This document shows positions 15,366 through 64,000 of a stretch of DNA of 64,000 nucleotides, in pieces. This DNA comes from a virus. Location of the stretch: IMG/VR virus record IMGVR_UViG_3300045921_000267, positions 1 to 64,000 of that record. One strand, written 5' to 3'. A model generated the notes under the pieces. It made no database searches. It was not told where the DNA came from and saw only the letters and a program-made list of their open reading frames with translations. The translations under genes and the position numbers were made by a program. Positions within the stretch are counted from its first letter, which is position 1. Each line of letters starts with the position of its first letter.

Positions 15366-15371
15366 GAGCGG

Positions 15372-15384
15372 TCTATACCCGATG
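15372..15384 (-). promoter_or_regulatory. Phage promoter-like block P4 (CATCGGGTATAGA)
   Basis: The same 13-mer as P1. Six bases separate the hexamer from the GTG start of the helicase, so transcription should begin at the start codon. The block lies in the 27-base gap before the helicase-primase operon. Confidence 0.6.
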
Positions 15385-15392
15385 GTACTTCT

Positions 15393-15983: not shown

Positions 15984-15992
15984 GCTTCCTCC

Positions 15993-17390: not shown

Positions 17391-17397
17391 GATCGTC

Positions 17398-17410
17398 GAT
17401 CTACCCGATG
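17398..17410 (-). promoter_or_regulatory. Phage promoter-like block P5 (CATCGGGTAGATC)
   Basis: The hexamer TAGATC ends seven bases before the GTG start of the SF2 helicase. The block lies in the 35-base gap after the winged-helix gene. Confidence 0.6.
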
Positions 17411-17425
17411 CTCGTGACGAGCCGA

Positions 17426-46256: not shown

Positions 46257-47666
46257 TCAGATCGAGTTCGGCAGGCGACCGATGTTCTTCACCACGACGT
46301 TCTTGGCCGGGGTGTACATCTTGATCGCGCCGTAGATCACCTGCGCCCAGCGGATCGAGGTGTCGATCACTGCGAGCGGGATCCGCGTCATCGGCAGAAG
46401 CTGCGACCACGCGAACGACCGCTGGTTCTGCATGAGCACGAAGCCCTTGCTCGTGCCAGGGATGTCGGCGTTGCGATCGACGATCACCTGCGTGGCGCCC
46501 GTCCGGGGCACCTTGAACGCGAGCTTCGCATCGCTCACCGGCTGCCCCGGACGCGTACGGTAGACCTCGTAGTACGAGGTGCCCTGCCCGCCGTCCGTCA
46601 CGGTGATGCTCACCGCGTCGCCCGCCGCGACCGCCACGCCCGCACTCGTCACGGGCGTGCTGCGCCCGTAGCGACCACCTGCGACGATCTGGTAGATGTA
46701 CGTGCCCGCGTCGGCCGCGACGAACTGCGACAACGCATCCGGTGCCGCCGTCGGACCTGCGCTGATCGCCGGAGCGAGTGGGCGCTTGCTCGGCGAGCCG
46801 AGACCCGCCGCGATGGGAGGACCACCTGGGAGGATGAACACGGAGTCGTGCAGATTCACGCGCCCGTGCTGGCCCTGGAATGCCTTCACCGTCGCGCCGA
46901 GCACGCCAGGCTCGGGGCTCACGCTGAAACGCTGCCGGTCGTAGACCTGCTTCGCCACGTCCGCGAACGGACCCGTGTTGAAGTACGCGTCCGTGGCAAC
47001 GCCGAAGTTGTCGCGGACACGCAGCAGCATGTCGTTCAGGAGTTCCTCCGTGAGCGCGCCGCCGCGAAGGTCGATCACGTTGTCCGGCGCGCCGTCGGAG
47101 ATGAGCTTGTAGAGCCCGTCGAACTGCTCGGGCAGCAGCGAAGAGTCGCCGAAGAAGAGCGCGTTCTCCAGTTGCTGGAGCAGCATCATCGTCTTGTTCA
47201 TGGTCTCCATCGCGATCACGTTGCCGTGAGCGGGACGGATCACCGACGCGACGTGCGTGACGCGCCCGACGATGCCGAGGAACTTGATCAACACGGTGAC
47301 ACGCTGGTAGGTCGAGTCCTCCTCCTCGGGGAGATCACCCTCGGTCATCCATCCGAGGTCGAACTGCCGAGCACCGCCGCGCGAGTACGCGAGCAACCGG
47401 TTGAACTCCTCGACCGTGTTCGAGGCGGGGACCTTCGGGATGCTCTTGAAGAGCTTCACCTCGTCCATCTCGAACGTGAGATTCTTCAGGGTCGCTTCGA
47501 GCGACTCCGTGCGCAAGGGGAATCCCTGGCCAGGCGTGACGCCCGGATCGTTCACATCCTGCCCGGCGAAGAGTGCCTTGCGGAGGTTGGCGATCTCCTC
47601 CGGGCTGGCGATGCCGTGCCCGTTGAATTCGCGGTAGTCCCGCGCGCCGACGAAGGGGCTGATCAT
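46257..47666 (-). CDS. Major capsid protein (HK97 fold) with inserted Ig-like domain
   Basis: The 469-residue protein stands after protease and scaffold genes. The N-terminal arm and E-loop region (TLKNLTFEMDEVKLFKSIPK, EEFNRLLAYSRGGARQFDLG), then the body (GVATDAYFNTGPFADVAKQV, LHDSVFILPGG) and the C-terminal end (TPAKNVVVKNIGRLPNSI) fit HK97-fold capsids of large phages. A segment at about residues 300-405 (AGTYIYQIVAGGRYGRSTPV followed by VSITVTDGGQGTSYYEVYRT) reads as an inserted Fn3/Ig-like domain that would project from the capsid. The ATG at 47666 has a GAGGAGAAGCAG site. Confidence 0.85.
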   Translation of the reverse strand: MISPFVGARDYREFNGHGIASPEEIANLRKALFAGQDVNDPGVTPGQGFPLRTESLEATLKNLTFEMDEVKLFKSIPKVPASNTVEEFNRLLAYSRGGARQFDLGWMTEGDLPEEEDSTYQRVTVLIKFLGIVGRVTHVASVIRPAHGNVIAMETMNKTMMLLQQLENALFFGDSSLLPEQFDGLYKLISDGAPDNVIDLRGGALTEELLNDMLLRVRDNFGVATDAYFNTGPFADVAKQVYDRQRFSVSPEPGVLGATVKAFQGQHGRVNLHDSVFILPGGPPIAAGLGSPSKRPLAPAISAGPTAAPDALSQFVAADAGTYIYQIVAGGRYGRSTPVTSAGVAVAAGDAVSITVTDGGQGTSYYEVYRTRPGQPVSDAKLAFKVPRTGATQVIVDRNADIPGTSKGFVLMQNQRSFAWSQLLPMTRIPLAVIDTSIRWAQVIYGAIKMYTPAKNVVVKNIGRLPNSI

Positions 47667-47716: not shown

Positions 47717-48745
47717 TCAGGCGTAGCTCTTGGCGAGGCCCGCCTCGCCGGGGTGGCGACGGAGGAAGTTCTGGACCTCTCCGAGGATGTTGCTCGGGAC
47801 CTCCGCACTGCTCTCGACGAGCGGCACGAGGTCGGTGGCGATCTTGCGACCGCCGATCTCCTTCACGCCCTTCTCCAGGTGCATGTAGGTCAGCACGCTC
47901 GCGATCTCGCTCTTCTTCAGCGAGCCCAGGCCCCCGGCCTCGTTCGGCATGCTCTTCTGCATCGGCTGCGCGCCCGAGAGCGACGTGACGCCCTTCGGCG
48001 CTGCGACCGGCTGCCTCTCGACGACGCCGAGCCGCTTGCCGAGTTCGTTGATGACGTGCTGCTGACTCTTCACGAGCGCGCCGAGCGCGTGCACGGTTTT
48101 CGCCATCGCGACGAACTGCTCGTCGCTGCGTCGCAGCGACTTGCGCATCCGACGATCGAGCGTGTCGAGCGCTTCCGTGGTGCGCGAAGTGAGCGTCTCC
48201 AGGAATGGCGAGACGTCCACGACCTCGCCGATGTCGGGGTCCCGGCGAAACTGCGAATCGAACGACGCGCTCTTGCCCATCCGGCGCTTGCCGCGCATGC
48301 CGACGGGCTGCTCCTCGTCCTCGTCTTCGTCCTCGTCTTCGTCCTCGAAGTCGTCCTCGTCGTCGAGGTCGTCCTCGGCCGCACCTGCGAAGGGAGGCAT
48401 CTTCGGGCCGCGCGCCTTGCCGCTCATGCTCGGGCTCGGACGCTGATGCTGGAAGAACGAGTCGCCGCCGACGTCCTTCATCATGCCCACGATCGTCGCC
48501 GCTTGCCCGGCGTTGAAGCCGGCCGCGGTGAGCTTGCCGATCATGAGGTTCTCGATCGAGCCGGCGTCGGACATGCTGCCCTGCCCGCCGCCCTGCATGC
48601 CGTCGCTGCCATGCGTACCACTGTTGTCGATGTTCACGCCGTCGCCCTTCACGAGCGGCTCGCCCGTGACTCGCGACGCAGCCTTCAGCAGGTCGTTCAA
48701 GCTCGCGTCGAGAGCGTCGAGCGTCGTGGTCTGCTCGTTCTCCAT
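47717..48745 (-). CDS. Scaffold or capsid assembly protein candidate
   Basis: The 342-residue protein has the placing and composition of a scaffold: acidic middle (EDDLDDEDDFEDEDEDEDED), a helical coiled part (EALDTLDRRMRKSLRRSDEQ, AKTVHALGALVKSQQHVINE) and a C-terminal helical segment (SEIASVLTYMHLEKGVKEIG), between prohead protease and major capsid genes. Scaffolds fill the prohead and are removed by the protease. It could alternatively be an internal virion protein. A good site precedes the ATG at 48745. Confidence 0.7.
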   Translation of the reverse strand: MENEQTTTLDALDASLNDLLKAASRVTGEPLVKGDGVNIDNSGTHGSDGMQGGGQGSMSDAGSIENLMIGKLTAAGFNAGQAATIVGMMKDVGGDSFFQHQRPSPSMSGKARGPKMPPFAGAAEDDLDDEDDFEDEDEDEDEDEEQPVGMRGKRRMGKSASFDSQFRRDPDIGEVVDVSPFLETLTSRTTEALDTLDRRMRKSLRRSDEQFVAMAKTVHALGALVKSQQHVINELGKRLGVVERQPVAAPKGVTSLSGAQPMQKSMPNEAGGLGSLKKSEIASVLTYMHLEKGVKEIGGRKIATDLVPLVESSAEVPSNILGEVQNFLRRHPGEAGLAKSYA

Positions 48746-48758
48746 CTTCTCTTCTCCT

Positions 48759-49619
48759 TCACTTCTTCGCGGCGCCCTTGAAGTGGAAGTCCGCGATTGC
48801 CTCCGCCTGCTTCAGCGAAAGGCCGGGCGCCATCGTCTGAAGCAGAACCGCCGTTTCGAGTCGCGTGATGGGCTCGCCAGCGAGCGCCTTGTCGAGCACG
48901 CGTTGCTCGATCTCCGAGAGCTTCTTCTTTCGCTTCTTGATGCGTTCGATCGTGGGGCTCGTGCTACCCTGTGCCGCGGCTTCGACGCTGCGGCGCGCCA
49001 TCACACGAGCACCGCCGTCGCCTGTTGCACTTGCCGGAGCGATTGCGACGGGAGCGCTGCCAGCCGAGAGCGACTTCGCGAGCACGTGCAGCGCCGTGTT
49101 CGTATTCACTGGGCATCGGGTGATCGCGACCTCGCGCACGACCGCCTTGCGGATGACCGAGGGGTTCTTCGCGTCGCGCGCAGTGACACTGCCCTCGACG
49201 CTGAAACCGAGTCGGCGATCGGTCTTCTGGAGCGCGTTCGCCAGCATCCACAGAGCGTCGGCCCGCGGGTGCCCGTCGAGCAGATAGCCCTCGACGTACC
49301 ATCCCTTGCGCATGCCCATCGTGCGGAACTCGGCGCGCGTCGGGTAGCCGACGACTGCATCCGTTGCGGGATCGTGGTTGTCGTTGAACCAACCATCCTT
49401 GAGGAACGGCGCGAAGTCCATCCCGTCTTGCAGGATCTTCTCGGCTTGGCGATCGAGGTCGTCGGTCGAGCAGATCCCACCGATGCGGCGATTCGTCGGA
49501 GCGCTCGTGTCGCTCTTCGTGAAGACCTCGGCATCACACTCGAAGCGCCACGCGTTGCCACGCCCGATGGGCGAGAGCGGCGTTGGGAAGACCTCGATCT
49601 GTGCTGCATCGAGAAACAT
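48759..49619 (-). CDS. Prohead serine protease
   Basis: This 286-residue protein is of the herpesvirus-assemblin/HK97 prohead protease kind. The histidine of the catalytic site is in WFNDNHDP (residue about 82) and the nucleophile region is GFSVEGSV (Ser about 140), followed by REVAITRCPVNTNT, a typical conserved strand. It cleaves scaffold and capsid precursors during maturation. The last 90 residues form a Lys-rich helical tail. GTG just before ATG also exists, but ATG 49619 has GGAGACGTG at good spacing. It is followed by scaffold and capsid genes. Confidence 0.85.
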   Translation of the reverse strand: MFLDAAQIEVFPTPLSPIGRGNAWRFECDAEVFTKSDTSAPTNRRIGGICSTDDLDRQAEKILQDGMDFAPFLKDGWFNDNHDPATDAVVGYPTRAEFRTMGMRKGWYVEGYLLDGHPRADALWMLANALQKTDRRLGFSVEGSVTARDAKNPSVIRKAVVREVAITRCPVNTNTALHVLAKSLSAGSAPVAIAPASATGDGGARVMARRSVEAAAQGSTSPTIERIKKRKKKLSEIEQRVLDKALAGEPITRLETAVLLQTMAPGLSLKQAEAIADFHFKGAAKK

Positions 49620-49639
49620 CACGTCTCCAGAACGACGAA

Positions 49640-49985: not shown

Positions 49986-50275
49986 GTCGGGACCACCACG
50001 CCGAGCATGCGCGCTTGCACGACGGCACGCGAAGGCAACGGCACGCCGTGCGAGATGCAGGCGCGGAAGACGGCACGCTTCATCCGGTTGATCTCATCTT
50101 CAGTGTGCACCTTGCCAAGCGTGAGGATCGCGGCTGGGTTCATGATGAGGTCGAGCGCTTCGATCGCAGCGCTCGCGTTCGGGAGGTTCATGAAGTAGTC
50201 GAGCTTCACCCCGTTCTCGATCGAAAGGTCGTCGATCCCGGCACCTCGGAACACATCGGTATAGCGGTTGCCCAT
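49982..50275 (-). CDS. Hypothetical 97-residue protein
   Basis: This is a small, mainly helical protein (MGNRYTDVFRGAGIDDLSIE, NASAAIEALDLIMNPAAILT, EDEINRMKRAVFRACISHGV). The ATG at 50275 forms a TGATG overlap with the giant helicase gene and has a GGAGATGC site; a GTG one codon upstream is possible. No family is recognised. The tight coupling suggests a partner or chaperone for the preceding virion protein. Confidence 0.65.
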   Translation of the reverse strand: MGNRYTDVFRGAGIDDLSIENGVKLDYFMNLPNASAAIEALDLIMNPAAILTLGKVHTEDEINRMKRAVFRACISHGVPLPSRAVVQARMLGVVVPT

Positions 50276-53200
50276 CACGCATCTCCTTTGAACTTCGAGA
50301 ACGGGATGAAGAAGCGCGAGAAGCTCTTCTGCGTCATCGCGGCCTTCTTCGCGGCACGCGTAGCGGCAGCCTTCTTCGCCGCCTCCTTCCGCTTCTTCGC
50401 ATCCCTCTTCGCCTTCTGCGCCTCGAACTTCACCTTCATAGCGGCCATCTTCGCGGCCAGCTTCTCCCGCTTCGCCTTCCAGCGAGCAAGCATCTCCGCT
50501 TGCTTTTGCTGCCTCTTCGAGAGCGGAACTGCCTCGACGATCTCGCTCTTTGCGGTTGGCACCGCCGGAGGCTGGGGTGCTTCCGCTGCGGGCTTGCGCT
50601 CGCGCGGCGGCGCGCTCGGAAGCTGCGACATCGCGGCGAGCGAATGGCCCGTCGTCGGCAGGAAGTCGTACTGCGTCTCCACGGGCACGCCATCCTGCAC
50701 CGTCTTCATGAAGAACTCGAAGGGCACCTGCTTTGCGCGACCCTGCGTGAGCTGCGAGAGTTCCGCTTTGCTGGGTACCTCAGGCACGACATCGCCAGTC
50801 GGCACGCGGATCTTCTTCTTCTCGCCCGTGTTGGGGTCGGTGATCTGCACCGTCCTGAAGACGGGCATGTTCACCGACGTGGTGAGCCGCTTCACGTTCA
50901 CGAGGTACTTCCTCGACTTCAGGATCTCTCGCTCGAACGGTGAGAGATGCTTTTCGAGGATCTCATTCATGATGTCAGCGTTCGTGATCTCCGCAGGCTT
51001 GATCTGCCGTTCGATGACGCGCACAGCGCCAGTGACCGGATCGACGCGCTCGACGGGTTCGAGCTTGCGCCCGTACTGACGCAGTTGATCGCGCACCTTC
51101 GGACGCATCTCCGCGATCTTCGAGAACGCGCGATGCGCGAAGAATGCCTCGGCTGCGACCACGGGGTTGAAGCCCATGCTCATCGCCTGCGACTTCTCCG
51201 CTTCGTCGAGCGCCTCCCACGCTTCGTGAATGATGCTCATCGCGCTTTCCATGCCGGAGTACTCGGCGAGCCCGTTCTTCGCTTCGATCTCGCGCACGAT
51301 CTCGCCGAGGCGATCGAAGACGGGCTTCGCCTTGTCCGGGATGATGGCGTCGAGCATGCGCGCGGCGCGCGTGATCCGCTGCCACTCTTGCATGGGCGAG
51401 TGCAGCGAGTCGTACATCACGAGTTCACTTGCGTTGCCCCAGTTGAGCCCGACCTGCGCAGCATCCGACGCGATCATCATCTTGCAGTTGTTGAAGACGT
51501 CGATCTGGTGCGTCGAGAGCGGCGCACGATCGGTCACGTACTTCTGGAAGATGGCGTTCAGTTGCTTCGTGAATACATCCTTCTTCTCCAGTGGGGCGGC
51601 GTTGCGGCGCTGCTCCAGTTCCTGGATGAGCTTCCGATCCTTCGCGCTGATCTCGCTCTCGTAGACGTAGCCAAGGCGCGTCTCGTCACCGACGACGCGC
51701 GTGGTGACGCGCATGGGCACCTCGATGCCTCCCGTGCCGTCCGGGCCGGCGAAGAGACGACTGATGCGCTGGCGCTCCGCGCGAGACCAGCCCTCGAAGA
51801 ACTCGCCAATCTTCGGCGGCTTGCCAACGCTACCGGTGAGCGTGCGGTGCACGAACATCGACGTCTCCGTGTCCTTCCCCATGTCGTCCTTGACCTTGCG
51901 GAAGATTTCGGAGTTCACATCGCGGTCACCAAGCGTCGCACCCTTGCCGAAGTAGGTGACGAAGTAGCCCATCTTCGGACGACGCTTCTTGTCCTCGTCG
52001 GACGAGTAGCCAGTATCCTCGTGCCCGAGCGCTTCGTTCACGTCCATGTAGCCCATCGATCGGAGCTTCGATTCCATCGTGCGGCACGACGAACCGATCC
52101 GGTTACCGAAGAGGATGAACTGCGCGTCGGGGTTGCCTCCCGTCGCGGTGTTCGTGCGCTCGCGGATGTAGCGTTCGAGTTCGTCGGCCTTCGCGTTGTT
52201 CGCAGTCATCGCCACGTCGAACATGGCGCGCTCGCGACGACGCAGCGGCGAGAGCTGAATGGAGAGCTTCGGATCCTTCGCCTTCTGCTGCTGGAGACCG
52301 GCCTTCTTCTTCTTGTCGCCTTCCGCTTCTTCGACGCTCTCATCGTCTTCTTCGTCGTCACCGCCCTCCGCATCGTCGGTGAACGTGCCGTTGAAGTCCC
52401 AATCGTCCTGGTGGTAGTAGAGACCCGCTGCCTTCTTCGACGGATCGCGGATGAACTTCGTGCCGATCGGTACTTCGATGCGCTCGCCGTTCCACTCCGC
52501 GACGAGAGGCTTCAGGTTGCCATCGGCGTCGAGGTACCCGCGCGCGATGCCGCCCTCAGGACCGTAGTCCGGGTTCGGGATCTTGCCCCACGACGTACCG
52601 TTGACGAAGCCCTTCTTGATGTCAGCGAGCAGCGCCTTGTCGATCTCGGTGCCTGCGAGCTTGTAGTAGTCGATGCCGAGGATCTGCGTAACGTAGAACG
52701 AGAGCACCTCGAACTCACCCTCCGAGATGCGACCCTTCTCGACGTCCTTCGCGCTCGGCCACTTGCCGCCGAAGCCGTGCGGTGGCTTGCCCGTACATCG
52801 CTTGAAGTCGGGCAACATGAAAACACGCTCGACTTCCTTGATCTCCGTCTTGCCGGTCTTGCCCTTCTTCTCGGCGATCTTCTCGATGTACGTGACGAAC
52901 TCGCGCTGATCGGGGGGCTTGTAGCCCGGCGAGTTTGCGAATGCGCGTGCGACGTTGACCTTGCGACGCATGCCGCCAGAGAACGCAGCGGCTTCATCGG
53001 TGCCGAGCGCGCCCGCCTCTTCGAGCTTGATCATCTCTTGCTCGGTCATGGCGGCCATCGCCAGACGGTAGACTTTCTCCTGCATGCCCGTCATGTGAGC
53101 AGGCTGGTTCTCGTCGAGCAACACCGCAGGCATCGTCTTACCCTTCACGTCTTCCGTGAGAGCGACGTGCATGCGCGTCGCAAGGTACGACGCGAGTTCG

Positions 53201-56200
53201 GAGGCACGCTGCGGATTCAAATCCGTGCGCGGCGGATTCTTCGAGCCGTTCGCCACCATGACGGCACTCGGCGCGAGGTAGCGCTGCGAGAACTGCTTCT
53301 CGGTGCCGAACGGGCTCTTGCCGTTCGTGAGGAGATCGAAGTACCGCGGGATGGTGTTCAGGCGATTCGTGATCGGCGTCCCCGTGAGCAGCAGGAAGAG
53401 GTTCATGCTCGGGTTCCAACGCTCGACTGCGCGCGAGAGTTCGTTCTCGCGCGCGATCGCATGCGCCTCGTCCACGATGATCCCATCGAAGCCGCCATGC
53501 ATGCGCAGGTCAGCCTCGTTGTCGCGAAAGTACTCGAACGGGATGATCACGACGTCGTTCTCTTTGTCGGCCTCGGGATCCCATCCGCTGGGGTTCTTCT
53601 TCAACCACTCGGCGCGGGCCTCAGCGACGCGTCGTGCATAGGCTTCCTCGCTCTCGCCATCCTTCTTCGGCGGCCAGTTCTTTGGCGAGAACGCCTGCAC
53701 GGCTCCGGCAAGCGTGTTCGCGCCGATGAGCGTCGCGCCCTTTTCCGTGAAGTCGATCGCGGCGCGCTGCCACTGCACCGCCGTGTTGAGCGGCACGACG
53801 ATCGCAACGCGCTTGCGCGGTGAGCCCTCGATGGGAGTGCCGTCGGGCTTCTTCGCGTTCTTCATCAGACGGATCGCGGCGAGTGCTGCGATCGTCTTGC
53901 CAGTGCCCATGAAGTGGGCCGCCATGCAGCGCCCCTCGGCACGTGCGCAAAGGCGGAGGAACTCCTCCTGATGCGAGCCGAGCTTGAAGCGCGATCCATT
54001 CGCGAGGGTCGGCTTCAGTCCCTTCAGTAGCCCACCGTTCTCCTCGTCGGTGTTCACGCCGCCATCGGGGCTCGTGATCTGCGACGGCAGCACGACATCT
54101 CGCTGCTTCGCGCGTTCGACGTTGCGCTTCTCACTCCTCATGAGATCGTCGAGCAGTTGCTGCACGTACGAATCCATCACGAAGCCGCCGAACTCCTCAC
54201 GGAGCACGGAGATGTCGCGCAGGTCGATGAAGGGTCCCGTGTCGTCACTGCGCACCGCCGGGAAACGGCGGATCTCCTCAATCGAGATCGATCCATCGCT
54301 TGGGAGCTTCAGCCTCACGGTGCCGCCGCGGAGCTTGCCATCCGCGTCAAAGCGCAGATTGTCGCCGTAGAGCAGCAGGTGGTTCTTCATCGGCATGACG
54401 TCGCGTCGTTGGCGCGTCACGTCATTGCGATCGACCGCGGTCGTGACCTTCTCCGCATCCTTTTCGCTGATGCGTGCGATCTTCGCGAGTCCGGTACCCT
54501 GCCCTTTCAGCGGTTGCACCTTGAACGTGCTCTTGCCCGGAATCTTCTCATCGTTCTCGTCGAAGGCATCCTGCACCTCGACGATCTCGCCGTAGACGAT
54601 CCGCTCACTCGTCGGGTCGCGGTACTTGATGAGAGCGCCCTGTCCGAACTCGATCGTGCGCGGCGGGATCTCGCGCACACCCTCGACGTTGATCTTGTTC
54701 TTCGAGTCGAGCAGCGAATCCACTCGCGCTTGCTCAACGCCAAGGATGCGATTCCAGTATTCGCCTGCGAGCAGCGGGTTGCCGCCGCCGTCGAACGTGA
54801 TCTTGATGTGCGCGTAGCTCGGGTTCTTGTCGGTGCCCGTCTGCACGGTGACCCACGTACTCGCCTGCGCCTTCGCAGCATCGCGCATGAGCCTCACGAG
54901 GTCACCCTCGTTGCGGATGCGCTCACCAAGCGGGTTGATGAGCTTGGCGAGCAACGGATCGGTGATCTGCCCTGCCTCGATCTTGCCGTTCTTGTGCAGA
55001 AGCATCTCGGCGGTCGTGCCAAGATCACGTGCGAGCTTCGCTGGCTCCAGTCGATCCCATCGAAGCTCGGGCCATGTACCCGTCGCGACCTTGCGGAGCT
55101 TGCCGCTCTTCGTGCGCTTCCACGCGAAGGGCTTCTCCTCAGGCGTCAGGCGCCCGTCAGGCTGGATGCGGTACCTGATCCACCGCTGCTCCGTCACATC
55201 GACGCCAGATGACTCGCGACGCGTCACGGAGAGCGGCAACACGAACCTGCCGCCGGGCACGAAGGGCTCGCTCTCGTTGACGGTGATCTTCGTTTTCGTC
55301 CCGTCTGGATTCGGCATCTCGTAGACCGTCGCAGCACGCACGGGCTCGACCTTGCCGGTGATGGGGTCGTGCGCAGTGACGACGACGGGGCGCTTCAGCT
55401 TCTTGTCGTAGACGCGCTTCAGCAGCGGTTGCTTCTCCGCCTTGCGCAGTCCTTCGAACTTGAAGGTCGGCGTGAGAGCCTCGAACTCTTCGCGGCTCAT
55501 CTCCAGCGGAACCCACTCATGCCGGTCCTCGCGAAGCTCGGCGCTCGTCTTGCCCTTCTCGCGCAACTTGCGGACACGCTCGCGCTCTTTCTCTTGCGAT
55601 GCACGCGACTCACCGAGCTTCGCGAAGATGATACGACCAAGGTGCGACTGAAGTTCACCAGGCTCCCAGCCCACCACGTCGTCGCCGATCTTCTCGTTGA
55701 AGTCCTCGTCGTCTTGCCGGAGGTAGAGCAGCGCCTGATGCGGCGTCAGCGCGTTCCCGTTTTCATCGTATATCTCCTTGTAGACCTGCTGCGACTGGAA
55801 GCGCGCAGCGGTCGGCGAGTCGTAGACGGGAAGCTCGGTCTCGGGATCGATCGTCGGAGGCACCGGCTCCCATCCCGAAAGCTCTGCATCCTTGTCGGGC
55901 GGGCCGAGTCGGAAGAACACGGCGCGCCCCTTGTAGTGCACCGTGTAGAACTGATCCTTCTCGCTCCGGTAGGCGCCGACGTAGCTCGGTTGACCTTCGA
56001 TCTCGCGCTGCGCCGCGATGCGGCGCGCTGCTTTGCTCGCAGGCTTCAAGTCCCACCAGCGAAGCTCTTCATCCGGTACCTTCAGCATCTTGTCGAGCGA
56101 AGGGCCGGGGATGAGGCCGTGCTTGCGGAAGAACTCGTAGCGCGCGGGGCATTGACGAGCCATCTGCTTCGGTCGCGAGATCATGCACGCGACCGACTCC

Positions 56201-57075
56201 GCCCAGTCCTCCTTCTCGTTCGTGAACGCGTAGTCGGAGATGCGCTGCGGATCACGCAGCGAGAGTTCCTTCCACTCCTCCCATATCGCGCTCTTGCTGC
56301 TGATCAACGCGTCGTGCATCTGGTGCGCGAGTTCGTGCCACACGATCTCTTCCGCGATCGTGAAGCGCGATCCGAAGCGCGGACGCCCGACGGGCTCAGC
56401 CGTGAAGCCTGGCGGGCTACCGTGAGTGCCAGGAGTCCCATCGGCGAGTAGATGGACCTCGCCGGTCTGCCCATTCGACCATCCCGCGGGAGGCACCGTG
56501 CCGTGCTCGGCCCAAAGCGCCACTTCATCTGGATCGTTGCGCGTAGTGATGATGATCTTCTTCAGTTGATCGTCACCGATCAGCGCACGCATCGGCTCAG
56601 GCAGCATCTGGAACGCGCGGTAGACACGCGCGAGCGGGAAGCGCTCGATCTCCTCGTCCGGCTGCGCCTTCTCCTTCGCCGCGAACGAGGCGTGGAAGCG
56701 TCGCAAGAACTCGGGGTGCAGATGCACCTTCACGCCCTCGATTCCAAGAGCGCGCACGAGCGAGTCTTCCGTGACCTCGCTCGGCTTCACGCGATTCTTC
56801 GCGAGGTTCTTGAAGAGCTTGTGGATGTTCGAGGTCAGTTCGTGCTCGTGATGAGTTTCGATCGCCTCGGTACCCTCGACCTGCTTCTTCCCAGCCTCGC
56901 GCACCTTGTCGTCGGCGTAGTAGTAGCGGTAGACGATGCGCCCGTTACGGAAGCCGACGAACTCGCGCTTGATGTACTTGTGACCCGCCGACGGTCCTCG
57001 CGAGAAGCCGGTCGCAGTGGCCTTGACGAGTTCTTCGCTCACGCCGAGTCGGCGGATCGGGACCACGAACTTCAT
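50275..57075 (-). CDS. Giant zincin/SNF2 helicase protein, probably injected with the genome
   Basis: At 2266 residues this is by far the largest gene. Order of parts: an N-terminal segment (GHKYIKREFVGFRNGRIVYR) akin to those of other head-module proteins here; a metallopeptidase-like domain with WHELAHQMHD (HExxH at 247-251); a long linker; an SNF2-type helicase with motif I MGTGKTIAA (about 1056), motif II IVDEAHAIA (about 1201), motif III LLTGTPITN (about 1231) and C-terminal motifs ASDAAQVGLNW (about 1870) and QEWQRITRAARM; then a basic Lys/Ala tail. P1 DarB, a similarly large packaged helicase fusion, protects injected DNA from restriction, but it has a methyltransferase, not a zincin. 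A position between portal and protease makes packaging plausible. Start ATG 57075 has GGAGGAGTGACA. Confidence 0.85.
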   Translation of the reverse strand: MKFVVPIRRLGVSEELVKATATGFSRGPSAGHKYIKREFVGFRNGRIVYRYYYADDKVREAGKKQVEGTEAIETHHEHELTSNIHKLFKNLAKNRVKPSEVTEDSLVRALGIEGVKVHLHPEFLRRFHASFAAKEKAQPDEEIERFPLARVYRAFQMLPEPMRALIGDDQLKKIIITTRNDPDEVALWAEHGTVPPAGWSNGQTGEVHLLADGTPGTHGSPPGFTAEPVGRPRFGSRFTIAEEIVWHELAHQMHDALISSKSAIWEEWKELSLRDPQRISDYAFTNEKEDWAESVACMISRPKQMARQCPARYEFFRKHGLIPGPSLDKMLKVPDEELRWWDLKPASKAARRIAAQREIEGQPSYVGAYRSEKDQFYTVHYKGRAVFFRLGPPDKDAELSGWEPVPPTIDPETELPVYDSPTAARFQSQQVYKEIYDENGNALTPHQALLYLRQDDEDFNEKIGDDVVGWEPGELQSHLGRIIFAKLGESRASQEKERERVRKLREKGKTSAELREDRHEWVPLEMSREEFEALTPTFKFEGLRKAEKQPLLKRVYDKKLKRPVVVTAHDPITGKVEPVRAATVYEMPNPDGTKTKITVNESEPFVPGGRFVLPLSVTRRESSGVDVTEQRWIRYRIQPDGRLTPEEKPFAWKRTKSGKLRKVATGTWPELRWDRLEPAKLARDLGTTAEMLLHKNGKIEAGQITDPLLAKLINPLGERIRNEGDLVRLMRDAAKAQASTWVTVQTGTDKNPSYAHIKITFDGGGNPLLAGEYWNRILGVEQARVDSLLDSKNKINVEGVREIPPRTIEFGQGALIKYRDPTSERIVYGEIVEVQDAFDENDEKIPGKSTFKVQPLKGQGTGLAKIARISEKDAEKVTTAVDRNDVTRQRRDVMPMKNHLLLYGDNLRFDADGKLRGGTVRLKLPSDGSISIEEIRRFPAVRSDDTGPFIDLRDISVLREEFGGFVMDSYVQQLLDDLMRSEKRNVERAKQRDVVLPSQITSPDGGVNTDEENGGLLKGLKPTLANGSRFKLGSHQEEFLRLCARAEGRCMAAHFMGTGKTIAALAAIRLMKNAKKPDGTPIEGSPRKRVAIVVPLNTAVQWQRAAIDFTEKGATLIGANTLAGAVQAFSPKNWPPKKDGESEEAYARRVAEARAEWLKKNPSGWDPEADKENDVVIIPFEYFRDNEADLRMHGGFDGIIVDEAHAIARENELSRAVERWNPSMNLFLLLTGTPITNRLNTIPRYFDLLTNGKSPFGTEKQFSQRYLAPSAVMVANGSKNPPRTDLNPQRASELASYLATRMHVALTEDVKGKTMPAVLLDENQPAHMTGMQEKVYRLAMAAMTEQEMIKLEEAGALGTDEAAAFSGGMRRKVNVARAFANSPGYKPPDQREFVTYIEKIAEKKGKTGKTEIKEVERVFMLPDFKRCTGKPPHGFGGKWPSAKDVEKGRISEGEFEVLSFYVTQILGIDYYKLAGTEIDKALLADIKKGFVNGTSWGKIPNPDYGPEGGIARGYLDADGNLKPLVAEWNGERIEVPIGTKFIRDPSKKAAGLYYHQDDWDFNGTFTDDAEGGDDEEDDESVEEAEGDKKKKAGLQQQKAKDPKLSIQLSPLRRRERAMFDVAMTANNAKADELERYIRERTNTATGGNPDAQFILFGNRIGSSCRTMESKLRSMGYMDVNEALGHEDTGYSSDEDKKRRPKMGYFVTYFGKGATLGDRDVNSEIFRKVKDDMGKDTETSMFVHRTLTGSVGKPPKIGEFFEGWSRAERQRISRLFAGPDGTGGIEVPMRVTTRVVGDETRLGYVYESEISAKDRKLIQELEQRRNAAPLEKKDVFTKQLNAIFQKYVTDRAPLSTHQIDVFNNCKMMIASDAAQVGLNWGNASELVMYDSLHSPMQEWQRITRAARMLDAIIPDKAKPVFDRLGEIVREIEAKNGLAEYSGMESAMSIIHEAWEALDEAEKSQAMSMGFNPVVAAEAFFAHRAFSKIAEMRPKVRDQLRQYGRKLEPVERVDPVTGAVRVIERQIKPAEITNADIMNEILEKHLSPFEREILKSRKYLVNVKRLTTSVNMPVFRTVQITDPNTGEKKKIRVPTGDVVPEVPSKAELSQLTQGRAKQVPFEFFMKTVQDGVPVETQYDFLPTTGHSLAAMSQLPSAPPRERKPAAEAPQPPAVPTAKSEIVEAVPLSKRQQKQAEMLARWKAKREKLAAKMAAMKVKFEAQKAKRDAKKRKEAAKKAAATRAAKKAAMTQKSFSRFFIPFSKFKGDA

Positions 57076-57077
57076 TG

Positions 57078-57401
57078 TCACTCCTCCGAAGCGAGCAGAC
57101 AGAAGGGGTCGGGCAGCGAATGCACCGCAGCGACGAAGTGCTCCTCGGTGCCTGGCTCGTGCTCGACGAAGCCCTCCCATGTCTTGCCGTCGCGCGTGCC
57201 ACCGGTACGCGCAGTGATCTTGCGGCCGAAGTGAGCAAAGAGATGCGAGCGCTCCACGTCGGTGAGCGGCTGCTTCACGTTCGAGAGTCCGATGCCGCCG
57301 TCCTCACGGCGGCGGATGTTGAACGCGAACTTTGCATCATCGCCGTCGATCCGGCCAACGTGATAGACGCGCTTCGCAGCCTTCTTCAGGTATTCACTCA
57401 T
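57078..57401 (-). CDS. Hypothetical 107-residue head-module protein
   Basis: The protein (MSEYLKKAAKRVYHVGRIDG onward) has a small beta/helix layout (FAFNIRRREDGGIGLSNVKQ, FVAAVHSLPDPFCLLASEE). The ATG at 57401 is preferred over one at 57407 because of GGAGAATGAAG spacing, although the earlier ATG overlaps the previous stop as ATGA. It lies between two giant proteins that may be injected. It is possibly a small partner of one of them. Confidence 0.65.
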   Translation of the reverse strand: MSEYLKKAAKRVYHVGRIDGDDAKFAFNIRRREDGGIGLSNVKQPLTDVERSHLFAHFGRKITARTGGTRDGKTWEGFVEHEPGTEEHFVAAVHSLPDPFCLLASEE

Positions 57402-57403
57402 CT

Positions 57404-60271
57404 TCATTCTCCGAGACCCGAGAGAAGCTCCACCGTTCGACGTGCGATGGTCGGCGCGTCCGCGATCTGCTCTTCAGGAGCGACCAGCAACCGCATCGTA
57501 CGCGGGTAGTTGATGGCTTCTCGAAGCATGCCGCTCGTGAGCGTAGCATCGGCGCGCCGCTTTTCCGAAGCCCGCGACTTTTCCATCTCGCGGTCTTCGG
57601 CGCTACGTAGATCGCGCAGCGTGCGCACACGTACGTTGCGCTGCGCACCGGTCGCGAGATCGGTCATCGTCATCACCATCGAGCCGTATTCGAACCCGCG
57701 AGGCGGCGGCACGTCTACGGTGATCGTCTGCGTCATGAGCCTTCGCATCTCCGCAGTCTCAGGTGCGATGCGCGTCGCAATCTTCATGCGGATCTCGTCC
57801 TCGCTCATGCGATCGACGCGCCGATACGCTTCCTCCGCAGCGCGCAGTGCATGCTCGTGCTGAAGCGCATTCGGCCCGCTCGCCTGCGAAGCGCGATCAC
57901 GAGATCGCTCCACGAGACCGGCGAGACGTGCCTTCTCCTCGGCGCGGTACTCCGCGATTTGCTTCGGCGTGACGTCGGCAGCCCTCTTACGGATGATCTC
58001 GTGCCACGTCGGACCGGAAACGACGGGTACGGGCGGCGTGAGCTTCTCCGCGGCGCGCGTCATGAGCGTCTTCGCGTCGCGGTCCTGCACCTTCTCGCGT
58101 GCGACGTTGATCGCGCGCTCGATCATCTCGCTCACGATCTCTTCAGCGCGACGTTGTTCGAGCTTCTTCCCGTTCGCGTAGATGGGCACCTGCTTCGCGA
58201 TCTGCGAGGTGCTCATCTCGTCATCACCGTACAGTCCGAGGCGCAGCGCGAGCATCTCCCCCGCGTCGCCCTTGTACGTGATCTTCTTCCTCCCCTCGCT
58301 CGTGAACTCGAACTCCGAGAGGTCGCCAAGCGTGCGTTGCACTGCTTGGCGAATCGCGACGCGCTCCTCGGGTGAATAGCCGAGCCCCATCCCGAGGCCG
58401 GGTAGCGCGAACTTGTCCTCGTCGAAGAGGTCACGAGCGCTCGCCTGCCCCTTCAGGAACGAGTCGTAGAGATGCGCCCATTCGAGCTTGCCGGGATGCG
58501 TCACCGTATCGCGCTCGACGCTTGCTTCGGTCGCGCCGACCTTCTCGCCCGTGCCTCGCTGCACAACGCCCTGCGAGCCCTCACGCACTGCGACGATCGT
58601 GTAGCCGTGCACCGGCACCGGCTCGTTCGCCTGAGCACCGGTGAGGTGGGAGTGCAGATGCCTCTTCAGAAGCTTGAAGTACGGCATCACTTGCTCGGGC
58701 GTCGGGTCATCGACACCGAGCGCCTTCGCAGCTTGTGCGCGCGCAGCGACGTAGCGCGCGATGTTGCGCTGATGCCTCATGGGTAACGAGACGCCGCCAA
58801 GCCGTTCGCGTGCAGCAGCGATGCGCACGTGGTCGCGCACAAACTGCTGCGCATGCGGGGTGAACGCGTTCTTTGCATCGTAGCGCTCGATCGCGTCAAG
58901 CAACCCTTCGATGCCGGCTCGCTGAAGCTCGACGAGCGTGGTGTTCACGGCGCGTCCACCCCGCACACCCTTTTCGTACTGCATCTGGAGCGCGAACTGC
59001 TTCGCGATCTTCTTCGCCGTGCTCGCGATGAGCGGCTCGAACTCCTTCACGAGCAAGTTCTTGCCGTGGTCAGACACCGCGATCGCTTCCATCTTCGTTT
59101 TGCGCTTCGAGCCGTCCTCGTTGACCTCAAAGCGCTCGATGACGCGCATGGGATAGACGCCGTTCTCGATCGCGTAGAGACCCGGCTGCGTCTCCTTGTT
59201 CGCCGTCGAGCCCCCGAACACGGGAGCCGTCTTCCCGGCCGCTGGGCGCCCGCTGGAGGGCTTCTGGCGCGTTCCTCCCGTCGGAGTCCAGGCCGGCTTC
59301 GTCTCGGCCTCTGGCGCCTCCACGCGAGCCCTGCGCAGGGGGTCGTGATCGACGCTGAAGATTCGATTGTGCTGCATCATGATCTTCGCGCCGTCGTCCA
59401 CGGCGCGAAGGATCGCGAAGCCAGGGTTCGTAGGGTCTTCGGGAACCTCGATGGTGTAGAGCTTCGCGAAGCGTCCACCGACTTTCACCGGAGCGTGGGA
59501 GTGCGGATCGACACCACCTGCGATCCACGGCTTCATCTCACCGCCGCTCACGCGCCAGTGCCAGTGCGTCGGGTCCTTGTCGAAGTCCCCAGCACGGAAC
59601 TGCTCCTCACTGAAGCGCGTCGCCGTCTTCCACTCGTGCGCGACGTGCGATGCCTGCGGCTTCTCCTCTCCTGGATACCAGTACTCCCATCCCGATCCCT
59701 TGCGCCGGCGGAAGCCGTGCTTGTGTCCACCTGGGATGGGCATCCAGCCCGCGCCTTCTGGATGCGCGGCCTTCACGAGGTCGGCGAGCGTAAGGATGGA
59801 GCGCACGAGTTCGCCACGGTTTTCCTTCTTGAAGACCTTCGCCTTGAAGGCGTCGATGTGCATCTTCTTCATACCACCGAAGAAGCGCGCGTCGTCGTAG
59901 TGCGCGAGATACGCGGTTTTCGCCTTCTTCGCGCTCGTGAAGCCGAGCATGACCTTCTGCTCGTCCACCTCCGAGAAGTCAGGCTTCTTCATCTGCGTCA
60001 CGACGTAGACGCTCTCGCTCTCCGGGTGAGGCCCGATGTAGCAGTCCACGTGATCACCGTCGGTGCCTTCGGTGCCGCGGATGTAGCCGTAGTCGTAGAG
60101 CATGCGCGTCGAGCCGTTCTCCTTGGAGTGTGGGTCGTACCAGTGACGCACGGTACCTCGCGCGTTCTCGATGCTGATCTGCATCCCGTGCACTTCGGTG
60201 CGACCGTGGAGCTTGCGTGCCTTGCCGTAAAAGTCGGCGATGACGCTCGTCTTCGGGATCACGTACTTCAT
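57404..60271 (-). CDS. Head-module protein: pyrophosphatase-like domain fused to a sigma-70-like factor
   Basis: This 955-residue protein has an N-terminal domain (residues 30-150) that reads like the inorganic pyrophosphatase-like domain of phage head proteins (LYDYGYIRGTEGTDGDHVDC, then GP). Next comes WMPIPGGHKHGFRRRKGSGW (about 176-195), and after a Pro-rich linker three parts that fit sigma-70: region 2 (405-490; TLVELQRAGIEGLLDAIERY, DAKNAFTPHAQQFVRDHVRI), region 3 (495-530; SLPMRHQRNIARYVAARAQA, LGVDDPTPEQV) and region 4 (670-728; EMLALRLGLYGDDEMSTSQI, then a long RAEEIVSEMIERAINVARE helix). A helical end follows. The gene overlaps the MuF-zincin gene (ATGA). A packaged, injected sigma factor is inferred from context. 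The domain reading is by eye. Confidence 0.8.
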   Translation of the reverse strand: MKYVIPKTSVIADFYGKARKLHGRTEVHGMQISIENARGTVRHWYDPHSKENGSTRMLYDYGYIRGTEGTDGDHVDCYIGPHPESESVYVVTQMKKPDFSEVDEQKVMLGFTSAKKAKTAYLAHYDDARFFGGMKKMHIDAFKAKVFKKENRGELVRSILTLADLVKAAHPEGAGWMPIPGGHKHGFRRRKGSGWEYWYPGEEKPQASHVAHEWKTATRFSEEQFRAGDFDKDPTHWHWRVSGGEMKPWIAGGVDPHSHAPVKVGGRFAKLYTIEVPEDPTNPGFAILRAVDDGAKIMMQHNRIFSVDHDPLRRARVEAPEAETKPAWTPTGGTRQKPSSGRPAAGKTAPVFGGSTANKETQPGLYAIENGVYPMRVIERFEVNEDGSKRKTKMEAIAVSDHGKNLLVKEFEPLIASTAKKIAKQFALQMQYEKGVRGGRAVNTTLVELQRAGIEGLLDAIERYDAKNAFTPHAQQFVRDHVRIAAARERLGGVSLPMRHQRNIARYVAARAQAAKALGVDDPTPEQVMPYFKLLKRHLHSHLTGAQANEPVPVHGYTIVAVREGSQGVVQRGTGEKVGATEASVERDTVTHPGKLEWAHLYDSFLKGQASARDLFDEDKFALPGLGMGLGYSPEERVAIRQAVQRTLGDLSEFEFTSEGRKKITYKGDAGEMLALRLGLYGDDEMSTSQIAKQVPIYANGKKLEQRRAEEIVSEMIERAINVAREKVQDRDAKTLMTRAAEKLTPPVPVVSGPTWHEIIRKRAADVTPKQIAEYRAEEKARLAGLVERSRDRASQASGPNALQHEHALRAAEEAYRRVDRMSEDEIRMKIATRIAPETAEMRRLMTQTITVDVPPPRGFEYGSMVMTMTDLATGAQRNVRVRTLRDLRSAEDREMEKSRASEKRRADATLTSGMLREAINYPRTMRLLVAPEEQIADAPTIARRTVELLSGLGE

Positions 60272-62085
60272 CGGTCGAGCCTCACGTTCTGCGGCATGAA
60301 GCGCGTTGCTGCGGGGTCCGGGCGGCGCCGCTGCGACACCGGACGGATGAGCGAGCGGTAGTAGCGGTGCACGAACGTGAACTGTCGCGGGAAGTCACGC
60401 ATGAGCGTCATGCGATCGTAGAGATACATCCTCGTTACCTCCGCCGCGCACTCGATGGGGAGCTTGCTCGCGTACTCCGTGACGAAGCCCTCCTCTTTCG
60501 CGATCGCGAAGAGCTTCTCGTGCCATGCCTTCACCTTCTCGATGCTGCCAAGACGGTGCATCAGAAACACGTTCGGCACGTGCCCCATCTCGTGTTCGAG
60601 CACCGCGCGCAGCTTGTCGAGTGGTAGGTTCTGCATGATGCGGATCTCGTTGCCGGTCCAGTACGCGAGATCGTGATCGTCGAGGTGCGAGTTCTGCGTT
60701 GGATGATCGGTCGTGATCAGCGTGATGCCCGTGCGCTTCGTGAAGAGCGTCTTCGGCGTGCGCGCGATCACGTCGTCGATGATCGCAAGTCGTTCAGGGT
60801 CGCCGACGCGAACGACGACGCCATGCTCGGGCACCGAGTCGCCATAGGAGAGCGCCTTGCGCAGATCGTGTTCGAGCATCCACGCCTTGCGCGTGCGCTT
60901 CGGCACGAGATTGCCCGTCGTGTCGAAGCCCCATCCTTCCGGCACGTGGACGAGCGCGCATTCACACCACGGATGCGTCGGTCCGACGACGGCGCGCCAG
61001 TCACGAGCTTTGCGACCGACGTTCGTGCCATTCGCTTGCAAGTCCGCGAGCCGGAACACGCGAGGGCGTGAGCCCTGCCCTGCGGTGAGATGCAGACGCA
61101 CGCAGTGATCGCACGCCGCAGGCGTGGGCACCTTCGCAACGAGGATGTCGCGTGGGTTGCCCTCGCGCTTCATGAGTCCTTGCACTTGTCCTTCCTGCAT
61201 GGCGCGCATCTTCTCAGTTGCGGCGATGCGTCCGAAGTCACGCGACCAGTCCTTCGTCTTGTGCCCGAGGTCACTCTTCATCTTGCGCCACGTTTCACGG
61301 CGCTCGATGTTCTCATCGAGCGTCTCTCGGATCGCACGCTGCATGCGCTGCTGGAGAGCGCGGTCAGCCTCGATGGCAGTCGTCTCGAAGTCCTGCGCGA
61401 CACGGTTGCCGAGACCGCGCACGTGCGTCGCCGCGCTGCGGCGCGCCCACTCGCGGGCGAACTCCTCGTCACTCGTCATCGGAAGCGGTCGTGTGGCGAG
61501 TCTGTTCTTGATCCCCTTCAGCGTCATCGCCGGGATCTTCACGACACCATGCGCGACTTGCGCGTTCACCTCAGCGAGCAGTTGCCCGTACGCGTACGCG
61601 TCGTCGATGATCCCGAGCGCGCTCTTCGGAAGGATGCCCATCGCTACGATGCGCTTCACCTCCTCGGGCGCAACGCTCGACGCGCCAAAGAAGCCGATCG
61701 CGATCGCGGTGTGATGATCAAGGATGATCTGCACAAGCTCGCGTAGTTGCGCCGTCGTGAAGAGCGGACGCGGTCCTCGCGCCTTCATGAAGTCGGCGTG
61801 CTTCGCGATGTAGCGATCGATCGCACTGAGCATGCGATCGATCTGCGCGTCGTACTCTCGCATCGCAAGATCGTACATCTCCGCGAGCGGCTTGTGCGCC
61901 TGGAACGGATTCTCGTTCGCGCGTGGCTCCGCCTTCACGAGCCATCGCCCACCGACGACGGCTTGCGCGATCAGGAAGGGGTCAGCGTGTGCAGGTGCTT
62001 CAATGCGCACGCACGCATGGTGCTCATGATGCGCATGCCCACACCCAGGCCCAGTTCCGGGCTCGTGCTCGTCGCTCGTGCTCAC
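60268..62085 (-). CDS. MuF-type minor head protein fused to a zincin domain
   Basis: The 605-residue protein carries the MuF pattern in its middle: RIAATEKMRAMQEGQVQGL, then the cysteine/histidine pairs CDHCVRLH (about 325) and HPWCECALV (about 373). MuF proteins bind inside the portal region and often carry toxin or enzyme domains. Here the C-terminal third holds a metallopeptidase-like motif EHEMGHVPNV (HExxH about 497) with a further acidic zone (IECAAEVTRMYLYD). The His-rich N-terminus (GCGHAHHEHHACVRIEA) is unusual. The ATG at 62085 directly follows the previous gene's stop. The enzyme may act on the cell envelope or on other virion proteins during maturation. Confidence 0.8.
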   Translation of the reverse strand: MSTSDEHEPGTGPGCGHAHHEHHACVRIEAPAHADPFLIAQAVVGGRWLVKAEPRANENPFQAHKPLAEMYDLAMREYDAQIDRMLSAIDRYIAKHADFMKARGPRPLFTTAQLRELVQIILDHHTAIAIGFFGASSVAPEEVKRIVAMGILPKSALGIIDDAYAYGQLLAEVNAQVAHGVVKIPAMTLKGIKNRLATRPLPMTSDEEFAREWARRSAATHVRGLGNRVAQDFETTAIEADRALQQRMQRAIRETLDENIERRETWRKMKSDLGHKTKDWSRDFGRIAATEKMRAMQEGQVQGLMKREGNPRDILVAKVPTPAACDHCVRLHLTAGQGSRPRVFRLADLQANGTNVGRKARDWRAVVGPTHPWCECALVHVPEGWGFDTTGNLVPKRTRKAWMLEHDLRKALSYGDSVPEHGVVVRVGDPERLAIIDDVIARTPKTLFTKRTGITLITTDHPTQNSHLDDHDLAYWTGNEIRIMQNLPLDKLRAVLEHEMGHVPNVFLMHRLGSIEKVKAWHEKLFAIAKEEGFVTEYASKLPIECAAEVTRMYLYDRMTLMRDFPRQFTFVHRYYRSLIRPVSQRRRPDPAATRFMPQNVRLDR

Positions 62086-62088
62086 CGA

Positions 62089-62502
62089 TCACGTCGTGAG
62101 ATCGCCGACGATGCAGACCTTCAATCGCCGCACGTCGGTCGCACTCGGGTTGGAGACGAAGAGCGAGGTCATGACCTCGGTCATGAGCGCAAACGCCTTC
62201 AGGTTGGGTGCCTGCGTGTTCAACGGCGGCGCCATGCGCGAGAGCATGCGGGACTGCTGACCGATGCCGTTCACGCGGTAAGTGATCTCGCCATCGGCCT
62301 CGATGTAAGCGAGGCGCGCTTGCGTCACATCGCCGAACGAGACCGGCACGTCGGAGGCGTTTGGATCAAGCGCGATCGTCTGCGTCACGACATGCTCGCA
62401 CGTGTCGAGCAGCTCCGTCAGCGAGCGCTCGAACGCCGTGTCATCGAGGCGGTTGTCGAACCCGATCGCGACTTGGAAATCCACCTTTGTCCGCAAGCTC
62501 AT
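62089..62502 (-). CDS. Hypothetical 137-residue protein after portal
   Basis: This small protein (MSLRTKVDFQVAIGFDNRLD onward) has a central beta part (ADGEITYRVNGIGQQSRMLS) and a helical C-terminal half (LNTQAPNLKAFALMTEVMTS). It overlaps the portal stop as ATGA. Its location suggests a head or portal-associated protein. No family is recognised. Confidence 0.65.
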   Translation of the reverse strand: MSLRTKVDFQVAIGFDNRLDDTAFERSLTELLDTCEHVVTQTIALDPNASDVPVSFGDVTQARLAYIEADGEITYRVNGIGQQSRMLSRMAPPLNTQAPNLKAFALMTEVMTSLFVSNPSATDVRRLKVCIVGDLTT

Positions 62503-64000
62503 CGCGAATCTCCCTCTTCGAGATCCATCTCGATCACGAGCCTACCACGCTCCGTCTTGCGCCTCACGCTCTTCAGCAAGCGATCGACGCCACGCATGCT
62601 CCGTTCGAGTTCAGCCTCTTCGGGAAGCTCGTCCACTTCACCCGCCTGAAGCTCTTCTTCATCGGGCGGAGGCTCCGGTGCTCCGTCGTCGTCCTCTTCG
62701 CCACCGGGCGACGGAGCGCCTCCCGCAGCAGCTTGTGACTGCTGCTCTTGCATCATCTTCTCTTGCTGCTTCGCTTGCGCGAACTGGAGCCACGTCGGGT
62801 TGTTGATGCACTGCCCAAGGCCATCAGGCAACGGCGGCAGGTCGTCGTCTGCGCGCACCTCGTCAACCATGCGGTACGCGCCGACTTCCTTGATGCGTGC
62901 CTCACGCTCCTTCTCTTCATCGCCAGCGTCGAGCCCGACGAACGAGAACTCGAACTCAGGCTCGATATCCCACACGATGTGCCGATTCATGTTGTCGGCG
63001 ATGTGGTCCATGAGCGGGCGCAGTCCCTTGTCCTTCGACTCAGTGAGCTTCGCTTCCTGCTTGCCCTCGTTGAGCGAGTGCGACTGCCCCGTGTTGCCGA
63101 ACTGGAAGTTGATCTCGACGGGATCGGCTCCGTAGACCGCGCACGTAAGCTTCGTGAGCCAGTCCATCCACGCGCTGAACTCCATCTCGCGGTTCGTCGA
63201 GTGCAGCGACTGCCACTGAATGTCTTCCGAGTTCAGGATGGGCGTGCGCCATGCGTTCGTGACACCAGTGACCTGCGAGTACCACATACGTCGAAACGCA
63301 CGGAGTTGGCGATCTGGAATGGCGCCCTTGATGTTCAAGATGCCTTTGATCGCCGAGCCTTGTGAGAAGAAGCGCTGGTTGTACTCGAAGCCGAAGAGCC
63401 ACGCGGTCACAAGGTGCATCAACTGCTCGACGGGCGAATAGCCGAAGCCGTTCACGCGGAGATCGCTGCGTGGGTTCATGATGCACCACGCGAGATCATC
63501 CGACGAGAACTCAGCGATCACCGAGTCTTCGTAGACCTGCACGTAGGCGACGCGCGAGTGTTTCTCCTCGGGGTCAAGATGCTCTGCATCCGACACCGCA
63601 GGTCGGATCGTCTCGCTCGGAAGCGCGATGAAGCGCGAGACCTTCCCGCGCCGATCGCGAATCTTTTCGAAGCACCACTGGTCGTAAGTGAGGATGTCAC
63701 GCACGCCCTTCTTCACGAAGAGCGTGAACGAGTCTCGGTCGGCGGGCTTTTCGTCAGGCAGCAAGATGCCCGTCGTTTCGATCATCCGCTCGATCTCACT
63801 CGCCCGCTTCTGCTCGGCGGGTGTCATGCTCTTCCACCGATCGCGGCGATCACGCTTGATGATGCGGTAGCCGCGATCGTACTTGCCCTGCTGCGGACGC
63901 GAGAACTGCGCAACCTGGTTGCAACGCAGCGTGATCAACGCAGCGATCACCGTGTTGCGCGCAGTCATCTGGCGGAGCGTCTCGTAGGTCAGCGACGACG
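62499..64000 (-). CDS. Portal protein (N-terminus beyond window)
   Basis: The frame is open to the right edge (LTYETLRQMTARNTVIAALI is the first visible part), so the real start lies outside. The 500 visible residues fit a portal: wing and stem helices (DQWCFEKIRDRRGKVSRF, YSPVEQLMHLVTAWLFGFEY, AFSAWMDWLTKLTCAVYGAD-type segment), a typical NFQFGNTGQSHSLNEGKQEA stretch, and a Gln/Pro/Glu-rich C-terminal tail. The portal forms the 12-fold channel for DNA packaging. The terminase should lie just upstream, beyond this window. Confidence 0.85.
   Translation of the reverse strand, partial: SSLTYETLRQMTARNTVIAALITLRCNQVAQFSRPQQGKYDRGYRIIKRDRRDRWKSMTPAEQKRASEIERMIETTGILLPDEKPADRDSFTLFVKKGVRDILTYDQWCFEKIRDRRGKVSRFIALPSETIRPAVSDAEHLDPEEKHSRVAYVQVYEDSVIAEFSSDDLAWCIMNPRSDLRVNGFGYSPVEQLMHLVTAWLFGFEYNQRFFSQGSAIKGILNIKGAIPDRQLRAFRRMWYSQVTGVTNAWRTPILNSEDIQWQSLHSTNREMEFSAWMDWLTKLTCAVYGADPVEINFQFGNTGQSHSLNEGKQEAKLTESKDKGLRPLMDHIADNMNRHIVWDIEPEFEFSFVGLDAGDEEKEREARIKEVGAYRMVDEVRADDDLPPLPDGLGQCINNPTWLQFAQAKQQEKMMQEQQSQAAAGGAPSPGGEEDDDGAPEPPPDEEELQAGEVDELPEEAELERSMRGVDRLLKSVRRKTERGRLVIEMDLEEGDSR

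Follow-up and report, generated by a model that had tools for sequence, protein, structure and literature searches.

A giant zincin-SNF2 protein, proposed to be of the polyvalent kind, encoded among the head genes of an uncultured contractile-tailed phage

In polyvalent proteins, the zincin MPTase and the SNF2 motor have been described as hub domains, and a processing role has been proposed (Iyer et al., 2017; PMC5512222). No other domains are shared so widely by the phage and plasmid types of these proteins as the zincin MPTase and the SNF2-methylase module, and two options have been published for such zincins, self-processing or attack on host proteins (PMC5512222). P1 DdrB is cut before packaging, with its MPTase suggested as the cause, and the N4 virion RNA polymerase, whose zincin is of the same type as the one described below and was recognised via a match to lethal factor, is packaged uncut (PMC5512222). 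In an Acetonema prophage, zincin and SNF2 domains occur in one protein, as part of a larger mosaic that includes a methylase (PMC5512222). P1 DarB is a packaged protein that protects DNA (PMC9024508, PMC5512222), and its packaging signal comprises 30 residues (PMC9024508).

The window analysed here, a stretch of 64,000 nucleotides, is part of a 69,099-base IMG/VR virus record from a contractile-tailed phage (sheath and baseplate genes) with a SPO1-like capsid protein (identity up to 34%). On its minus strand an intact open frame of 2266 codons runs from 57075 to 50275, opening with an ATG at 57075 that has CGGAGGAGTGACA upstream, a good Shine-Dalgarno sequence, and CGGAGGAG in front. The frame and a family of 12 N-terminally complete members define its product, of 2266 aa, as a zincin-SNF2 polyvalent protein (50275-57075). 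The earlier note had described a gene of this size with HELAH near the N-terminus, and the frame, the Shine-Dalgarno sequence and the fact that HELAH is the sole HExxH in the protein agree with it. Of shuffled copies of the protein, 5.6% contain an HExxH and 0.02% an HExxH with ExxAE at zincin spacing; the gene is real and its zincin and SNF2 content is not due to chance. The Lys/Ala-rich end that the note had also pointed out is real in the window protein (50332-50517) and is restricted to the nearest relatives, as in the alignments it is present in the window protein (P0001), L002, L003 and L004 and missing in L010/L011. To the reading of the whole as an injected polyvalent protein, in which the zincin would serve self-processing and the SNF2 motor would act on the entering DNA, we give about an even chance.

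The gene lies amid head genes, as had been noted, with portal, MuF and polyvalent genes upstream and prohead protease, scaffold and capsid genes downstream, all on the minus strand. The portal protein (62499-63968, from Pfam and PHROG searches), whose frame starts outside the window at record position 64229, is followed by a MuF-like head protein (60268-62085, from PHROG and zincin comparison) with a second zincin at its C-terminus (HEMGH at 60580-60594, ECAAE), by an InPase polyvalent protein (57404-60271; PF18823, 1.7e-37), and by a small conserved ORF of 109 aa (57078-57407, from the sequence and the loci compared). On the other side are the prohead (head maturation) protease (48759-49622; phrog_1028, 2.7e-46), the head scaffolding protein (47717-48745; phrog_15087, 2e-4) and the SPO1-like major capsid protein (46257-47666, from PHROG and capsid comparison). 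MuF's own zincin (HEMGH...ECAAE) and the InPase polyvalent gene in between had been overlooked before. The MuF and InPase genes overlap by 4 bases, as do the InPase gene and the small ORF, which in turn lies 2 bases from the giant gene, and these genes are therefore probably expressed together, in coupled late expression. Where the contigs reach these genes, MuF, the polyvalent gene, the small ORF, the giant gene, prohead protease, scaffold and capsid follow one another in this order (17 loci). The small ORF, a candidate chaperone or loading partner, stands directly ahead of the giant gene in most loci; among the 17 examined, it was not detected in L032 and L033, the two most distant members. 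Far from this operon, at 5277-7547 and 8395-9354, a CobT/CobS-like pair was found (phrog_1576, phrog_249; a MoxR-type ATPase and its partner), and such pairs occur in several large phages.

The polyvalent neighbour has a common C-terminal part, and its enzymatic domains are swapped between loci: InPase in the window, InPase with GNAT in L002, ART-PolyVal, an HEMTH motif and a membrane domain resembling TMEM65 (7e-15) in L010:3-4793, and InPase with an S-adenosylmethionine (SAM) lyase domain (PF23780, 1e-6) and a HEATH motif in L039:135-3998. SAM lyase is a known phage anti-restriction activity, and the TMEM65-like domain is unusual for a phage cargo protein. The MuF protein of L003 carries an additional AstE/AspA-like domain extension, and the MuF zincin of the window is related to that of the giant protein (hhalign, 4.6e-7). 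A purely morphogenetic protease/ATPase, working on MuF, portal or scaffold in the prohead and not as a host effector, would suit both the invariable position of the gene, between those of MuF and the prohead protease, and an architecture that stays nearly constant while the neighbour varies, but a prohead protease is already encoded separately, the neighbour bears effector domains, and an SNF2 dsDNA motor is not known to act in head maturation, so that we regard this explanation as quite improbable. An architecture that hardly changes, next to a neighbour that does, could nevertheless indicate a core assembly or entry function instead of arms-race cargo. The neighbour repertoire consists of effectors of the polyvalent kind (Iyer et al., 2017), and the operon position together with the effector-bearing neighbour is consistent with a packaged anti-host cargo.

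Relatives of the giant protein were collected from IMG/VR, where a first search gave four loci, alignment-based searches brought the total to eighteen, and an N-terminal search added one more (L039); among the fetched loci, the pairs L003/L005, L010/L030 and L011/L021 each stand for a single sequence. The 12 N-terminally complete members comprise the window's protein and eleven IMG/VR relatives, with 29-75% identity to the former. Two pattern-based scans of 84,980 bacterial and archaeal genomes gave no relatives, tblastn against phages gave nothing at 1e-3 and weak helicase matches only with E up to 10, and across 50,697 phage records the protein is unmatched apart from weak helicase matches. 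Among plasmids, weak SNF2 matches and small zincin-like cyanobacterial plasmid proteins were found, the latter matching the zincin at 3.2e-12; two of them (L013:4743-5459 and L014:4740-5459), of about 239 aa, contain a related zincin, end in a Cys-rich stretch and lie near a DUF692 gene. PADLOC matches (ZorD and others) were rejected, as they cover nothing but common SNF2 stretches. The best PHROG is phrog_62, annotated "DNA helicase", with phrog_16 also matched, and this annotation would agree with an ordinary intracellular helicase for replication or recombination that stands in a late operon by chance. Such an origin appears most improbable, since 13986-17429 holds a separate replication module, with a DnaB-like helicase and another helicase gene, and since the zincin fusion, the hairpin module and the head-operon position would be left unexplained.

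The zincin domain occupies aa 150-335 (56071-56628, minus strand, as are all features of the protein given below), as delimited by AlphaFold and Foldseek and by a profile compared with the PDB. The HELAH motif at aa 247-251 (56323-56337) is the predicted zinc-binding and catalytic motif, the EDWAES stretch at aa 289-294 (56194-56211) is the predicted third-ligand helix, and shortly before it stands a Tyr at aa 282; HExxH, the Tyr and E..AE (ExxAE) are invariant in the 12-sequence alignment. In the zincin region this alignment has nine invariant columns only (H, E, H, Y, E, A, E, P, A), most of which are the catalytic signature, against a mean identity of 28%. The 12-sequence profile matches lethal factor (2.3e-6), an ATLF-like protein (7.5e-4) and a Pro-Pro endopeptidase (2e-3) in the PDB. 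AlphaFold modelled aa 1-419 with low confidence as a whole (mean pLDDT 55) but better at the zincin core, where most ten-residue blocks in aa 240-330 are at 68-87; when this model was compared with the PDB by Foldseek, anthrax lethal factor (5d1t, 2.8e-4) and PPEP-3 (2.7e-3) came out on top, and among viral structures "minor capsid" proteins match it best. The HELAH domain is thus, by the two routes of profile and predicted fold, a lethal-factor/PPEP-type (M34-like) zincin. The earlier note had named the lack of a zincin fold round HELAH as the result that would speak against it, and since fold and profile both give a zincin there, its proposal escapes that objection. The likeness to anthrax lethal factor, Pro-Pro endopeptidase and Zmp1 lies in the fold and in the HExxH/Tyr/Glu-helix signature, whereas identity is low (10-16%), the context differs and the substrates may differ too.

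Behind the zincin, a linker at about aa 420-540 (55456-55818) is rich in indels in the alignment and has pLDDT below 50, and is a candidate self-cleavage region; a conserved cleavage site was not identified in the giant protein. It is followed by a beta-rich region (about aa 540-1000, 54076-55455), predicted with fair confidence. The second half, for which a full set of SNF2 helicase motifs had been claimed, bears this out: motifs I (MGTGKT), Ia, II (DEAH), III (TGTP), IV, V (SDAAQVGLN) and VI (QRITRAAR) are present and conserved in relatives, in all 12 N-terminally complete members, L039 having DEAQ in place of DEAH, and Pfam gives SNF2-rel_dom (PF00176, 1.3e-16) and Helicase_C (2.3e-6). From Pfam and motifs, lobe 1 with motifs I-III is placed at aa 1031-1385 (52921-53985) and lobe 2 with motifs IV-VI and a large insert at aa 1605-1915 (51331-52263); alignments show a conserved insert between the lobes (aa 1386-1604, 52264-52920). 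Judged by its motifs, the motor is a complete SNF2 ATPase. In RapA, Tudor-like domains precede the motor, and the beta-rich region gave weak Tudor/PWWP/SH3-like Foldseek matches. Its position ahead of the motor would accord with an injected SNF2 motor that serves not to evade defences but to drive the DNA in or to promote early transcription by recycling RNA polymerase as RapA does, and that the zincin merely releases; no Foldseek match of the middle region, however, has an E-value below 1e-3, and we consider this very unlikely.

The earlier note had proposed a protease in the place of the DarB methyltransferase. A zincin is present and a methyltransferase was not detected by Pfam in six family members, which is meaningful because P1 DarB and Bordetella phage PHB04, used as positive controls, do give N6_Mtase with the same library; that the one "replaces" the other would imply descent from DarB, however, and the giant protein stands outside the DarB families. 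DarB belongs to phrog_1685/11801 and the giant protein to phrog_62, on which ground membership was rejected; the two align round Walker A alone, and comparison of the DarB families with that of the giant protein gave a single weak helicase-patch match, in L010. A search with the methylase pattern [DNS]PP[YFWH] carries no weight, since it missed DarB as well. A methylase hidden in the giant protein was also considered and was rejected on the Pfam result with its positive control and on the prediction of a beta-rich middle. The 69,099-base record, which is partial, has no N6_Mtase or N6_N4_Mtase match, and a relative of 100 kb has a separate N6_N4_Mtase elsewhere in its genome.

Near the N-terminus, at aa 30-56 (56908-56988), is a short hairpin (HKYIKRE..GF.NGR..YRYYYADD) common to other head-operon proteins. 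In the form HKYxxR...GK..Y.Y.Y it is found in all 12 complete members, L020 and L029 reading VKY for HKY. As a module of 20-28 residues (GHKYxxR..GxWxYxY) it occurs in the record in four copies in four head-operon proteins, at 56908-56988, in the InPase protein at 59663-59731, and at record positions 65098-65175 and 66862-66927, all between 56.9 and 66.9 kb and nowhere else. The relative of 100 kb has seven copies, all between 55.2 and 67.6 kb, and the module also recurs at further loci. Because the hairpin model had several of these copies in its training set, what is telling here is that the copies are confined to the head region. The hairpin is absent from P1 and was not found in the loci of PHB04, RHph_TM3_14A, XcP1 or MA9V-3, and these four comparison loci speak against it as a general mark of phages with an InPase or a similar capsid protein. 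The giant protein (MKFVVP) and the InPase protein (MKYVIP) also start alike, as MK[FY]V[VI]P. DarB has a 30-residue signal, and on that analogy the hairpin may be a packaging tag; the shared hairpin and the neighbour with its swapping domains (InPase, GNAT, ART, SAM lyase) suggest that the phages of this family load cargo by a general system.

Taken together, these features can be arranged in a scheme in which the giant protein would be made together with the head genes, directed into the capsid by its N-terminal tag or hairpin region and delivered with the DNA. The M34-like zincin would then most likely cut the polypeptide in the flexible linker behind it, as precedents suggest, and free the remainder of the protein once packaged or injected. 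The freed beta-rich/SNF2 part would be an ATP-driven double-stranded DNA translocase, as its motifs predict, and on the entering phage DNA it might strip off or block host DNA-bound defence enzymes. Self-processing is favoured because the protease has the tag region on one side and a flexible linker on the other and because MuF carries a second zincin, and by analogy it has a better precedent than attack on a host protein (PMC5512222).

The version of the earlier note, in which the injected zincin attacks a defence protein of the host, for example a restriction factor or another factor bound to DNA, and SNF2 is its DNA-tracking partner, draws on the same domain, established by fold and profile and conserved in 12 of 12 members, on the fact that lethal factor, PPEP and their kin are substrate-specific proteases acting on other proteins, and on the SAM lyase, GNAT and ART effectors of the operon neighbour; it is one of the options allowed by Iyer et al. 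(PMC5512222). Packaged zincins of the same group, however, have a precedent for self-processing in the cut P1 DdrB (PMC5512222), and the second zincin of MuF suggests a general processing role, so that attack on a host protein seems to us rather unlikely. A related idea, that the zincin travels with the SNF2 motor along the phage genome during entry and cleaves the DNA-bound host defence proteins it encounters there, we rate as improbable; such a DNA-tracking protease could in principle be a phage counterpart of the SPRTN/Wss1-type DNA-dependent repair proteases and, if true, would be a new way to clear defence complexes off incoming DNA. Self-processing, attack on the host and DNA tracking all bear on an old question that this family makes testable, namely whether the targets of the zincins common in injected phage proteins are self or host.

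As in polyvalent proteins, several unrelated catalytic domains (zincin and SNF2) are found in one giant multi-domain protein, encoded in a head operon between MuF and the prohead protease with InPase, ART-PolyVal and GNAT neighbours, and the MPTase is lethal-factor-like; here, however, zincin and SNF2, usually separate modules among many, form a fixed pair lacking the adenine methylase that defines DarB, in a family of its own, carried by uncultured myoviruses whose capsid proteins are SPO1-like. As far as shown by the literature searched, such a pair without methylase is new as a conserved family. With the N4 virion RNA polymerase and P1 DdrB, compared through the literature alone, it has in common a zincin MPTase inside a packaged protein, the other domains there being RNA polymerase and ParB, respectively (PMC5512222). 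In Bordetella phage PHB04, too, a giant SNF2 protein near the portal is encoded directly behind an InPase gene, but it carries a methylase where that of the window carries a zincin. P1 DarB is alike in length (2255 aa), in its central SNF2 motor and in the place of its gene beside the portal, whereas it has an N6 methylase, belongs to other families and has common sequence limited to the Walker A stretch. The giant protein would work like a polyvalent protein and is DarB-like in motor and size, yet it is not a DarB.
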